Origin: Candidatus Pseudothioglobus singularis PS1
Lineage (GTDB): Bacteria > Pseudomonadota > Gammaproteobacteria > PS1 > Pseudothioglobaceae
Assembly: GCF_001281385.1 (NCBI RefSeq)
Contig: NZ_CP006911.1
Coordinates: 806,001-870,000 of the forward strand
DNA: 64,000 nucleotides
Direction: 5' to 3'
The position numbers and the translations under genes are program-made. The notes beneath the pieces are model-generated. The model saw only the letters and a program-made list of their open reading frames with translations. It had not been told where the DNA came from and searched no databases. Position 1 is the stretch's first letter. Each line of letters begins with the position of its first letter. Of this stretch, positions 37,770 to 46,632 are shown in pieces.

Positions 37770-38639
37770 CTAAGTATTTTTTCTTGAAATGAAAATACCA
37801 GAAATAATAAGGAGAAGTGCCAAAATATTTTGCCAAAGAATGTCTTCACCAAGCAATAAAGCCCCAAGAAAAAAAGCAACTACGGGTATTAAATAATTAA
37901 TATTAGATAGAAATGTAGCGCCAGCAGTATTAATAATGATAAAGTAAAGAAAAGCAGCAATCCCAGTTGGTAGGGCACCTAATAGTATAATACTCACACC
38001 ACTAATAAATGGGATATTAGAAAAATTAATGAAGAAGATGTTGGGCCAAATAAAGAAAGAAAGCAAGCTCGCAACTAATAGAACGCTAGCACTTGACACT
38101 AAGGGGTCATAAGAAGGAAGTCGAGAGGCGATAATAGTGTTTATAGCATAAGCACAAGCAGCACCAAGAACTAATAAAACTCCAAAAAGAGTATTGTTGC
38201 CATTATTAATAGAAGGTCCAAGTATAAAAAGGACTCCAGAAATACCAATGATAAAGCCCAAAATTTTAAATCTAGTGAGTTTGTCGTTGGGAAGAAAAAT
38301 GTGAGCCAAGACAAGTGTAACTAGAGGCATAAAAGCCATAAGTAAGCCAGCCATACCAGATGTAATAGTTAATTGACCAGTTGCGATAAGCAGATATGGC
38401 AAAATGTTTCCAATCACTGCATAGACAATAAAGTGCAGCCAGGGTGTTATCGTTCTTGGAAAAGATTTTCCATAATAAAGCGCAATAGCGAACATAGTAA
38501 TAGCACCAATGACGAGTCTGTAACCAACAACTTGCTCTGGTGTGAAAAATAAAAGCGCACGATCAATAAGAAGAAAGGAGGATCCCCACACAATAACAAG
38601 CAAGCCTAAAAGCTGATAACTTCTTTTATTTATAGACAT
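37770..38639 (-). CDS. EamA-family (DMT superfamily) transporter
   Basis: Polytopic membrane protein of 289 residues with about ten predicted helices in two EamA repeats. The first repeat includes WGSSFLLIDRAL and VGYRLVIGAI; the second starts near residue 150 (LLVLGAACAYAINTIIASRL). Such proteins export amino acids or other small metabolites, but the substrate cannot be predicted. It starts 1.4 kb upstream of the aap transporter cluster and is probably its own transcription unit. Confidence 0.85.
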   Translation of the reverse strand: MSINKRSYQLLGLLVIVWGSSFLLIDRALLFFTPEQVVGYRLVIGAITMFAIALYYGKSFPRTITPWLHFIVYAVIGNILPYLLIATGQLTITSGMAGLLMAFMPLVTLVLAHIFLPNDKLTRFKILGFIIGISGVLFILGPSINNGNNTLFGVLLVLGAACAYAINTIIASRLPSYDPLVSSASVLLVASLLSFFIWPNIFFINFSNIPFISGVSIILLGALPTGIAAFLYFIIINTAGATFLSNINYLIPVVAFFLGALLLGEDILWQNILALLLIISGIFISRKNT

Positions 38640-43314: not shown

Positions 43315-44322
43315 TTATCTAAATGGAGGTGAGTAAAGAATACCACCTTGCGACCATAGTGCGTTAACACCACGAGCAATACCAATTGGAGTAGAAAGTC
43401 CAATGTTACGCTCGAAGCTTTCAGCATAGTTACCTACTTGCTTAACGATTTGGTAAGTCCAGTCTGGAGTCAGACCAACATACTCATGAGTGCTTCCTGA
43501 ACGACCCATTAAGCGCTCACGCTCTGGGTTGTTAGAAACATCATCAACGTTACCACTGTTAACACCAATTTCTTCTGCAGTAATCATAGCGTTTAAAGAC
43601 CATCTTACAATGTTGAACCATTGATCGTCACCTTGACGAACAACAGGACCTAGAGGCTCTTTAGAAATGATTTCTGGAAGTACTACATGCTCTGAAGGAT
43701 CATTTGCACCTGCACGCATTGAGTAAAGACCAGAAGCATCAGTTGTTAATACATCACAACGTCCAGCGTCATAGTTAGTTAGAGTTTGAGCATTAGTATC
43801 TGATACAACTGAGTTGTACTCGATTCCATTTGCTTTACCCCAGTCAGCTAAGTTCAATTCAGTAGTAGTACCTGCTTGAATACAAATTGCAGCACCACTT
43901 AATTCCATAGCACTAGAAACACCTAGAGAAGACTTAACCATAAAGCCTTGTCCGTCATAGTAGTTAACACCAGCAAAGTTCAATCCTAATGAAGCGTCAC
44001 GAGTAATTGTCCAAGTCGTATTTCTAGACAACATATCGATCTCACCAGATTGTAGCGCAGTGAATCTTTCCTTAGCAGTTAATGGTACAAATTTAACTTT
44101 AGTTGCATCACCAAGCGTTGCAGCAGCAACAGCACGACAAACATCAACGTCAATACCAGTCCATGTACCAGACGAGTCAGCTGAAGAAAAACCAGCAAGA
44201 CCTTTAGAGACACCACAAGATACGTGTCCTTTAGCCTGAACGTCGCTCAAAGTAGAAGCCTGTACACTAAGTGCACCAACAACTAACAATGAAGCAGCAG
44301 ACAATTTTAATAATTGTTTCAT
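43315..44322 (-). CDS. aapJ: Periplasmic amino-acid-binding protein AapJ-like
   Basis: Solute-binding protein of the importer. From ATG 44322 it has 335 residues with a signal peptide at 1-22 (LLKLSAASLLVVGALSVQA). The mature part shows the family pattern VQAKGHVSCGVSKGLAGFS, GIDVDVCRAVAAA and PLTAKERFTALQSGEIDML. The start at 44322 is preferred over 44364 because AAGGAG lies seven bases upstream (44328-44334) and the signal peptide begins there. It heads the operon and is divergent from nadE. Confidence 0.95.
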   Translation of the reverse strand: MKQLLKLSAASLLVVGALSVQASTLSDVQAKGHVSCGVSKGLAGFSSADSSGTWTGIDVDVCRAVAAATLGDATKVKFVPLTAKERFTALQSGEIDMLSRNTTWTITRDASLGLNFAGVNYYDGQGFMVKSSLGVSSAMELSGAAICIQAGTTTELNLADWGKANGIEYNSVVSDTNAQTLTNYDAGRCDVLTTDASGLYSMRAGANDPSEHVVLPEIISKEPLGPVVRQGDDQWFNIVRWSLNAMITAEEIGVNSGNVDDVSNNPERERLMGRSGSTHEYVGLTPDWTYQIVKQVGNYAESFERNIGLSTPIGIARGVNALWSQGGILYSPPFR

Positions 44323-44364
44323 ATATATCTCCTTAATGAGTTTCAAAGTATAAAAAACCTTCAC

Positions 44365-44757
44365 AATTGAATGAGGTTCACAGAAAATTTTAACACTAGT
44401 TAAACAAGTAATACAAATTAATTATTAAAAAAAAATTTAAATCAATTCAACTAGTATGGCTTGATTTTTGCTATTAAAGCGATAATATCCTCTAATTCAG
44501 ATCTAGAAAAGTTGAATTAAATTCAAGTAATTAGATTCTTTTTATTTAGCTGACAAATTGTTTTTATAAAGAATTTGATTAGATAATGCTAACAATCTTA
44601 ATGTATTCATTATAAATTAAATTGTTTTAATTCAATGAGTTATATATAAATTAGTTAAATCTTACATGTATTATTTTTGTTATTATAAGTAATTTTAGTT
44701 ATTTTTTACCTATAGTGGTATAAAATAACTAATATATAGTTTAATTAATGAAACACA
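44365..44757. other. 393-base divergent spacer between aapJ and the HTH-NadE gene
   Basis: Very AT-rich. Its notable contents are the palindrome at 44695-44732 and a plus-strand sigma-54-like sequence at 44457-44472 (TGGC-N7-TTGCT with the GG-N10-GC spacing). For aapJ on the minus strand a TTGTAT-18-TAAAAT pair is a weak promoter candidate. No gene, tRNA or riboswitch pattern is seen. Confidence 0.4.
44695..44732. promoter_or_regulatory. 36-38-bp near-perfect palindrome, likely operator for the HTH-NadE protein
   Basis: Arms TAGTTATTTT (44696-44705) and AAAATAACTA (44722-44731) are perfectly complementary. The inner ACC and GGT triplets are also symmetric about the same centre (44713.5), and one further pair extends each end. 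The right arm overlaps a TATAAA/TAAAAT -10-like box and ends 26 bases before the nadE start. This is what an autorepression site of the fused helix-turn-helix domain would look like. Binding itself is inference. Confidence 0.7.
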
Positions 44758-46632
44758 ATGATCATCAAAACTACCGAATACCTAGCAATGGTGCGTGATA
44801 AAACAGGTTATTCTGATTATAAAATAGCTAAAGAATATGACATTAATCAGTCAAATCTTAGTAAATATAGCTCTGGAAAGGCTGCTTTAAGCGAAACACA
44901 CGCTTGGTTGATCGCTAATATCCTTGATATAGACCCTGCTGAGGTTGTTGCAAATACTAAATTTGAACACGCAATAAATACAGGTAATAACTCGAAGGCC
45001 AAATTTTGGCAAGAACAGTTAAATAAAATATTTTCTGAAACCTCACCAATCAGAATACAAATCGCACAATTTAACCCTATTGTTGGGGATATTAAGTTGA
45101 ATGCACAAAAAATGCTTGATTTGTCTATTGAGGCTAATAATGCTGGAGCTCATTTAATTATATTTCCAGAGTTGGCCTTGACTGGCTATCCTCCTGAAGA
45201 TTTATTGTTTCGAGATGGATTTACTAATCAGGTCAAAGAGGAAATAACAAATTTCTGTAATTTGGTGCCTTCAGACATTTCAATTTTATTTGGTGCACCG
45301 AACAAAACTGATGACTTTCTTTTTAATAGCGCCTATCTTATTCAAAATAATCGAATCTTTAATATTTACAACAAGCAGGAATTACCAAATTATGGTGTTT
45401 TTGATGAAAAACGTTATTTTTCATCTGGTGTCGATTCTTTTGTATTTGAATGTCAAAATACCAAAATAGGTGTGTTAATTTGCGAAGATCAATGGGTCGA
45501 AGGTCCCATTTCAAGTTTATGCCAGTCGAATATTGATATTGTGGTTTCGCTTAATGCCTCACCATTTCAACTTAATAAGCAAAGTGAGCGCATAAATATC
45601 TGTAAAAATTATGCTTTAAAGTTTGATATTACTTTTATTTATGTGAATATGGTGGGTGGCCAGGATGAGGTTGTATTTGACGGTAACTCCTTCATAGTTA
45701 ATAATCAGGGAGATGTGTCCCTTCAACTCCCAGCCTTTAAAGAGCTGAGCGTTTCTCATATTGACACAACATTTACCCCTTCTTTGGTTAGCAATGTATC
45801 TTTAATCTATTCTGCCATTGTTTTAGCAACAAAGGACTATATTCAAAAAAATACTTTTGGCGGTGCTTTAATCGGTTTATCTGGAGGCATTGATTCTGCT
45901 TTAACTTTAGCTATTGCTGTTGATGCAATTGGTGCAGAAAATGTCCATGCAGTTATGATGCCATATCAATTTACCTCTGATATGAGTTTAACTGACTCTG
46001 AGCTTCAAGCTGAAACTCAGGGTGTTGAGTTTTCTAGTATCGATATCCATTCAATGGTTGACTCATTCAACTTATCACTGAGTGATCAATTTAGAAATAC
46101 TTCTAGAGATACTACTGAAGAAAATATTCAGTCACGTGTCCGTGGAACCCTTTTAATGGCTTTATCTAACAAATCTCATAAGCTTGTTCTTGCAACAGGT
46201 AATAAGTCTGAAATGGCTGTTGGTTATGCTACATTGTATGGTGACATGTGTGGCGGATTTGCACCTCTCAAAGATATATCAAAAACTATGGTTTATCAAC
46301 TAGCAAAATATCGAAATACCCTATCTGATGTCATTCCTGAAAGGGTAATAACTAGGCCCCCTTCTGCAGAGCTTGCGCCCGACCAGGTTGATCAAGATTC
46401 ACTTCCGTCTTATGATATCTTGGATGATATTTTGATGAGATTTGTAGAACAAAAACAGTCTGTTAATGAAATTATAGAAAATGGCCATAACTCAGAAGAT
46501 GTCAATAAGATTACTTCTTTAATCTTAAGAAATGAATATAAAAGAAGACAGTCTGCCCCTGGGCCCAAAATAAGTAGCAATGCCTTTGGAAAAGAAAGGC
46601 GTTACCCTATGACGTCAAAGTTTAAACCTTAG
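44758..46632 (+). CDS. nadE: Glutamine-dependent NAD+ synthetase with an N-terminal helix-turn-helix domain
   Basis: Makes NAD+ from deamido-NAD+, ATP and glutamine. The 624 residues exceed the usual 540-550. Residues 98-330 are the nitrilase-like glutaminase domain, with E138 in IFPELALTGYPPEDLL, a lysine in NKQELPNYGVFDEKRYF and the cysteine in LICEDQW. Residues 340-624 are the synthetase, with the P-loop SGGIDS at 375-380. Residues 1-92 are extra: KIAKEYDINQSNLSKYSSGK (22-41) is a helix-turn-helix, and DPAEVVANTKFEHA then FWQEQL recall phage Cro-like/DUF3693 regulators. No alternative start lies near residue 98, so the domains form one chain. A palindrome lies 26 bases upstream. The divergent gene is aapJ. 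Confidence 0.93.
   Translation: MIIKTTEYLAMVRDKTGYSDYKIAKEYDINQSNLSKYSSGKAALSETHAWLIANILDIDPAEVVANTKFEHAINTGNNSKAKFWQEQLNKIFSETSPIRIQIAQFNPIVGDIKLNAQKMLDLSIEANNAGAHLIIFPELALTGYPPEDLLFRDGFTNQVKEEITNFCNLVPSDISILFGAPNKTDDFLFNSAYLIQNNRIFNIYNKQELPNYGVFDEKRYFSSGVDSFVFECQNTKIGVLICEDQWVEGPISSLCQSNIDIVVSLNASPFQLNKQSERINICKNYALKFDITFIYVNMVGGQDEVVFDGNSFIVNNQGDVSLQLPAFKELSVSHIDTTFTPSLVSNVSLIYSAIVLATKDYIQKNTFGGALIGLSGGIDSALTLAIAVDAIGAENVHAVMMPYQFTSDMSLTDSELQAETQGVEFSSIDIHSMVDSFNLSLSDQFRNTSRDTTEENIQSRVRGTLLMALSNKSHKLVLATGNKSEMAVGYATLYGDMCGGFAPLKDISKTMVYQLAKYRNTLSDVIPERVITRPPSAELAPDQVDQDSLPSYDILDDILMRFVEQKQSVNEIIENGHNSEDVNKITSLILRNEYKRRQSAPGPKISSNAFGKERRYPMTSKFKP

Follow-up and report, generated by a model that had tools for sequence, protein, structure and literature searches.

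In the 64,000-nucleotide stretch of the Candidatus Pseudothioglobus singularis PS1 genome considered here (the window; positions 806,001 to 870,000 of NZ_CP006911.1), the nadE gene (44758..46632, plus strand) encodes a protein of 624 amino acids in which a helix-turn-helix (HTH) domain of the XRE/Cro type (residues 1-95) is joined to a complete glutamine-dependent nicotinamide adenine dinucleotide (NAD) synthetase. The fusion is confirmed as real, and it is very likely that the protein acts as a dedicated, single-target autoregulator of its own gene, probably as a repressor. An earlier note on this DNA had proposed that an enzyme of NAD synthesis able to bind DNA would be a trigger enzyme, able to couple NAD or glutamine status to transcription. 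The proposal that the enzyme can bind DNA is backed by comparison between genomes, namely the occurrence of the fusion throughout one bacterial family, the presence of putative operator boxes at nadE only and the relaxation of the HTH domain in reduced genomes. Autocontrol of transcription is well supported by inference from these comparisons, and the regulatory target appears to be nadE alone, with no wider NAD regulon.

The reading frame opens with an ATG and runs uninterrupted for 624 codons. Residues 97-623 match the NCBIfam NAD+ synthase model PRK13981 with 722 bits and, since this match begins only at 97, the first 95 residues are extra to NadE. The earlier claim that some 92 N-terminal residues are foreign to the enzyme also accords with the solved glutamine-dependent synthetases PDB 5KHA and 4F4H, which align to residues 98-622. 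The glutaminase (nitrilase-like) domain occupies residues 97-340 (45046..45777, plus strand; Pfam CN_hydrolase at 102-336, 3.2e-25) and the synthetase domain, with its SGGIDS P-loop, residues 341-624 (45778..46629, plus strand; Pfam NAD_synthase at 351-598, 3e-72). The catalytic residues E138, K206 and C242 are invariant, and with the SGGIDS loop are kept across an alignment of 51 sequences (A2), so that with both domains fused and the catalytic residues intact the enzyme is a glutamine-dependent two-domain (type F) NAD synthetase. A whole-genome search found no second NAD synthetase, nadE being the sole copy; a nitrilase-domain match in the synthetase search, at G000:C1:1625653-1626360, is a separate nitrilase-superfamily gene with 25% identity to the glutaminase domain. 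Beyond the start codon, in-frame ATG, GTG or TTG codons stand at residues 11, 12, 51, 114, 119 and 122 and there is none in codons 52-113, therefore a clean NadE beginning at residue 97 is impossible from a conventional start and the two parts form, as had been supposed, a single polypeptide.

The HTH_3/Cro-C1 domain spans residues 10-63 (44785..44946, plus strand). The Pfam HTH_3 match, which covers residues 10-62 in a search with residues 1-99 (E 7.9e-7), scores 29.5 bits against a gathering cut-off of 23, which places the domain in the XRE/Cro-C1 class. AlphaFold2, run with 19 relatives, modelled residues 1-101 with a predicted local distance difference test (pLDDT) score of 90.6 and helices at residues 3-16, 20-26, 31-39, 46-56, 60-75 and 78-92; in a model of the full-length protein the HTH region averages about 84 and most of the enzyme exceeds 90. 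The HTH had been assigned to residues 19-45, and the modelled helices place it there. The recognition helix (residues 31-39, QSNLSKYSS; 44848..44874, plus strand) overlaps the motif INQSNLSKY, which is invariant in all 29 aligned family proteins, the reduced genomes discussed below not being among them. The HTH unit ends in a helical hairpin (residues 60-93, DPAEVVAN...FWQEQL; 44935..45036, plus strand), made of the helices at 60-75 and 78-92 and followed by a variable linker, and the hairpin is present in stand-alone relatives too. Two phage protein families, phrog_4441 (4.3e-14) and phrog_638 (2.5e-11), match residues 2-91 and, as the match takes in the hairpin as well, the fused piece resembles an entire small phage-type regulator. 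The suggested likeness to phage Cro-like/DUF3693 regulators is thus borne out as regards the phage families, but not as regards DUF3693 (PF12472), for which the window protein yielded no match at E values as high as 10; a stand-alone relative of the phrog_4441/phrog_638 type (in L205) matches HTH_3, and DUF3693 only below the cut-off, and no literature on DUF3693 was found. No relative of the HTH domain was detected by tblastn in phage records, and matches on plasmids were to stand-alone regulators with 31-33% identity. A stand-alone HTH paralogue of 84 amino acids, 49% identical, is encoded at L164:2505-2759 (G071:C117) in a genome that also carries the fusion; it has a similar recognition helix, QQTNISKY, and 46 bp upstream of its start lies a box-like site, TAGATATAAAATACCACCA, of which about 0.0125 would be expected by chance. 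Among the nearest solved folds identified with Foldseek are the autoregulatory restriction-modification controller proteins C.AhdI, C.BclI and C.Esp1396I, as well as lambda cI, 434 Cro and SinR.

The same architecture, which the earlier note suggested looking for in related genomes, was sought in 83 genomes of the order, many of them metagenome-assembled genomes (MAGs), from 11 genera that all belong to one family, the SUP05/Thioglobus group. The HTH domain was recovered in 71 of the 83, including all 49 with a completeness of at least 90%. Every listed frame runs on into nadE, except in G080 and for an additional stand-alone copy in G071. The open frame is seen in many independent assemblies, closed chromosomes among them. 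NadE alignments of sampled relatives in the class but outside the family start at residue 82 or later, none of the loci extracted from outside the family has the extension, and profile searches of 274 genomes of the class and 399 of the phylum gave no other fused copy, results that hold for these partial samples and for this type of HTH. Long open frames preceding nadE in 20 other gammaproteobacteria (extensions of up to 378 residues) were read singly and discarded, since none resembles an HTH and they are apparently short leaders and frames that are antisense or non-coding. Six IMG/VR contigs classed as viral (L001-L006) encode NadE homologues with 36-46% identity, and the three that were read have no HTH extension. 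In the Ca. Thiodubiliella MAG G080 (L021/L165) the HTH region is out of frame and unrelated sequence replaces a stretch over the recognition helix, which is either an assembly error or a real lesion. At another locus (L105, G008:C2) the nadE match splits between two frames at about residue 540, probably because of a frameshift in the assembly.

The DNA upstream of nadE contains a recurring 19-bp motif, TAGTTAWWWWWTACnnnTA, with 98 copies at no more than one mismatch in 48 upstream stretches from the family compared to 0.48 in base shuffles. Since many of those stretches also served to derive the motif, it is its placement genome-wide that provides an independent test. Across 60 genomes of the family there are 73 exact matches, and comparison with the nadE start positions puts 72 of them no more than about 125 bp upstream of that gene, whereas the reversed control pattern has 20; the single match elsewhere is in G059, a genome from which no fusion was recovered. 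About 70 nadE upstream regions from outside the family contain no box. In a pattern search of the 1.71-Mb genome to which the window belongs both exact matches are at nadE, as are three of the seven found when one mismatch is allowed. The remaining near-matches were set aside as background, the reversed control giving 15 against seven at one mismatch, and one of them, at 37881-37899 in the window, lies inside a coding frame and was treated likewise; a tighter consensus at two mismatches was also rejected, its 15 matches falling below the 26 of the control. Usually there are two to four boxes, 25-125 bp before nadE. In the window, box A (TAGTTAAATCTTACATGTA, 44652..44670, plus strand) carries one mismatch and has an equivalent in nearly all relatives in the genus, mostly 45 bp before box B, whilst box B (TAGTTATTTTTTACCTATA, 44696..44714, plus strand) and box C (TAGTTATTTTATACCACTA, 44713..44731, minus strand) are the two exact matches. 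Together, boxes B and C make up a 36-bp palindrome (44696-44731) in the window's genus, and in other genera two boxes on the same strand are commonly 36 bp apart. A site at 44695-44732 had already been picked out in the earlier note; it reads TAGTTATTTTTTAC-CTATAGTG-GTATAAAATAACTA and is conserved in relatives. Upstream of the boxes, at about 44600-44650 in the window and also in relatives, there is a conserved block around AAATCAAT...TTA that is possibly the site of another regulator.

In most of the other genera the end of box C runs into a -10 element, TATAAT, and in G030 a full TTGACA-N18-TATAAT promoter is present; repression by occlusion is therefore favoured. It could also be supposed that the fusion protein reads the boxes as an activator, or that it regulates the divergent neighbour instead of nadE, and the arrangement of the locus lends itself to the latter, nadE being divergent from a gene for an amino-acid ATP-binding cassette (ABC) transporter binding protein (open reading frame 43315-44364) that 35 of 41 loci in the family have in the vicinity of nadE. 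This is decidedly improbable, however, as the boxes stay just before nadE at loci where the upstream neighbour is a different one (L109, L112, L115), and it is the -10 of nadE that they abut in most genera beyond the window's own.

The HTH domain is conserved at least as strongly as the enzyme to which it is attached. Mean identity within the genus is 88% for the HTH and 74% for the enzyme, and between this genus and the others the figures are 77% and 59%. Pairwise ratios of nonsynonymous to synonymous substitution rates (dN/dS, Nei-Gojobori) for the HTH lie between 0.04 and 0.08 in every group except for four reduced genomes of 1.02-1.03 Mb (G061, G062, G065, G069), where the HTH value is 0.97 and those for the glutaminase and synthetase domains are 0.083 and 0.095. 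Replacement to silent ratios differ between HTH and enzyme in these genomes (Fisher p 6e-8 for G061/G069 and 2e-4 for G062/G065), whereas in four pairs of larger-genome relatives they do not. The HTH thus has a constraint of its own that is separable from that of the enzyme, because in the reduced genomes only the HTH relaxes and the enzyme stays constrained. From pairwise counts it is estimated that the HTH of the reduced genomes has undergone about 44 near-neutral replacements, for which about four stop codons would be expected (0.093 per replacement), but neither a stop codon nor an internal indel is present. With no such lesion in spite of near-neutral drift, translation must run through the HTH region into NadE. 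This bears on the suspicion that an error of annotation or assembly has run together two proteins, with NadE translated from an internal start. The MAG with its HTH region out of frame (G080/L021) is the kind of case that would feed it, but the window has no candidate start in codons 52-113, the frame is open in assemblies made independently, closed chromosomes included, and the missing stop codons tell the same way, which makes such an artefact extremely improbable.

The proposed course of events begins in the family's common ancestor, where nadE would have acquired, by in-frame fusion, a Cro-like regulator of phage type some 90 residues long. The HTH of this regulator, by way of the recognition helix INQSNLSKYxSG, would bind the 19-bp boxes overlapping the promoter. 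Once enough NadE had accumulated, bound HTH units would shut the promoter and repress nadE transcription, and NadE oligomers, by gathering several HTH units, may allow cooperative occupancy of the spaced boxes. Here we infer the binding of HTH to box, the repressive effect and the cooperative binding of oligomers alike. A number of observations weigh against autorepression. A promoter scan shows no consensus -35/-10 pair in the window's own upstream region or its genus, so that the preference for repression over activation rests mainly on the other genera. The Foldseek matches of the HTH to solved structures are individually weak, with a best E of 0.05. The boxes of the reduced genomes have degraded only in part, and because they partly persist the decay of the sites does not fully track that of the domain; one persisting box overlaps the -10 and may have been retained owing to that overlap, and a TAGGTAAAAATTACATTGA-like element near the -35, present in most larger-genome relatives, is lost in all four. 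Finally, it is conceivable that a different regulator uses the boxes. Were that so, the HTH might be merely a structural or oligomerisation module, and HTH folds can indeed be recruited for protein-protein contact. Such a role is unlikely given that the HTH loses constraint in the 1.0-Mb genomes and the enzyme does not, and that boxes and fusion occur in the same taxa, with the boxes restricted to nadE, a pattern that would be unusual for a separate regulator.

An important consideration is whether the protein is not only an autoregulator but a true trigger enzyme, in which DNA binding is switched when deamido-NAD, ATP, glutamine or NAD+ occupies the active site, so that transcription of nadE would report NAD or nitrogen status. 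This refinement of autorepression is a real possibility, though one that we put at somewhat less than even. In its favour, throughout the family the HTH is covalently part of the enzyme that binds the ligands to be sensed, and there is a precedent in BirA and the group II biotin ligases, which are enzymes of an essential cofactor pathway with a small N-terminal HTH (lacking in group I) that double as repressors (PMC4016012, PMC6391492). On the other hand no coupling element is visible, because no position of the linker (residues 93-97) is invariant, and simple autorepression by the amount of enzyme needs no ligand and fits the data equally well. The fusion also differs from BirA in the enzyme and in the HTH family, in that its control seems limited to its own gene, and in that ligand gating is here a proposal; BirA regulates biotin genes, with autoregulation confined to the Desulfovibrionales (PMC5343134).

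BirA is the closest parallel by mechanism, NadR by pathway and the controller (C) proteins of restriction-modification systems by regulatory logic. NadR of the Enterobacteriales likewise combines an HTH with enzyme domains of NAD metabolism and controls NAD genes. Its enzyme domains are a nicotinamide mononucleotide adenylyltransferase and a ribosylnicotinamide kinase; the enzyme fused here is instead the final amidating synthetase, and Pfam and NCBIfam find in the window protein only HTH, CN_hydrolase and NAD synthase domains, so that it is not a NadR. Restriction-modification controller proteins are autoregulators with paired operators. C.AhdI and C.Esp1396I are among the nearest solved HTH folds, and with a best fold match at E 0.05 this is resemblance and not membership; the partner here is a metabolic enzyme, unlike a restriction endonuclease. 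Natural fusions of controller-type regulators to the enzyme that they control have been reported (PMC3850674). NadR is absent outside the Enterobacteriales, where it controls nadA-pnuC and sometimes nadB and pncB, and in the Proteobacteria NAD biosynthesis is also regulated by NrtR and NadQ, the regulons of the latter sometimes including nadE (PMC5343134). These are separate proteins with non-synthetase sensor domains, having a Nudix-like or COG4111 effector domain and a C-terminal HTH, whereas the HTH here is N-terminal and of the HTH_3 type, and the NadQ motif, ttATRCTCannntGAGYATaa (PMC5343134), is unrelated to the boxes; the fusion protein is thus neither an NrtR nor a NadQ. The regulators of phrog_4441 and phrog_638, which match the HTH unit and have stand-alone relatives in bacterial genomes, differ in being small and not fused to an enzyme.

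No HTH-NadE fusion was found in the open-access full-text literature, nor any description of the control of NAD supply in the SUP05/Thioglobus group, which is important in marine sulfur and carbon cycling. With NadR confined to the Enterobacteriales and the other known NAD regulators patchy, a self-repressing NAD synthetase would, if true, extend a short list of enzyme-repressors, and the 36-bp palindrome offers a concrete site on which to test it. The reduced genomes amount to a natural experiment in which the DNA-binding half drifts whilst the enzyme half remains under selection, as though regulation had been lost and the enzyme kept. More tentatively, the last enzyme of NAD synthesis may be a ligand-gated repressor that reads its own occupancy by substrate or product and directly sets the transcription of its own gene. 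If this is true, a one-protein NAD homeostat would have become fixed in an abundant family of marine bacteria and would now be eroding in the most reduced of its members.
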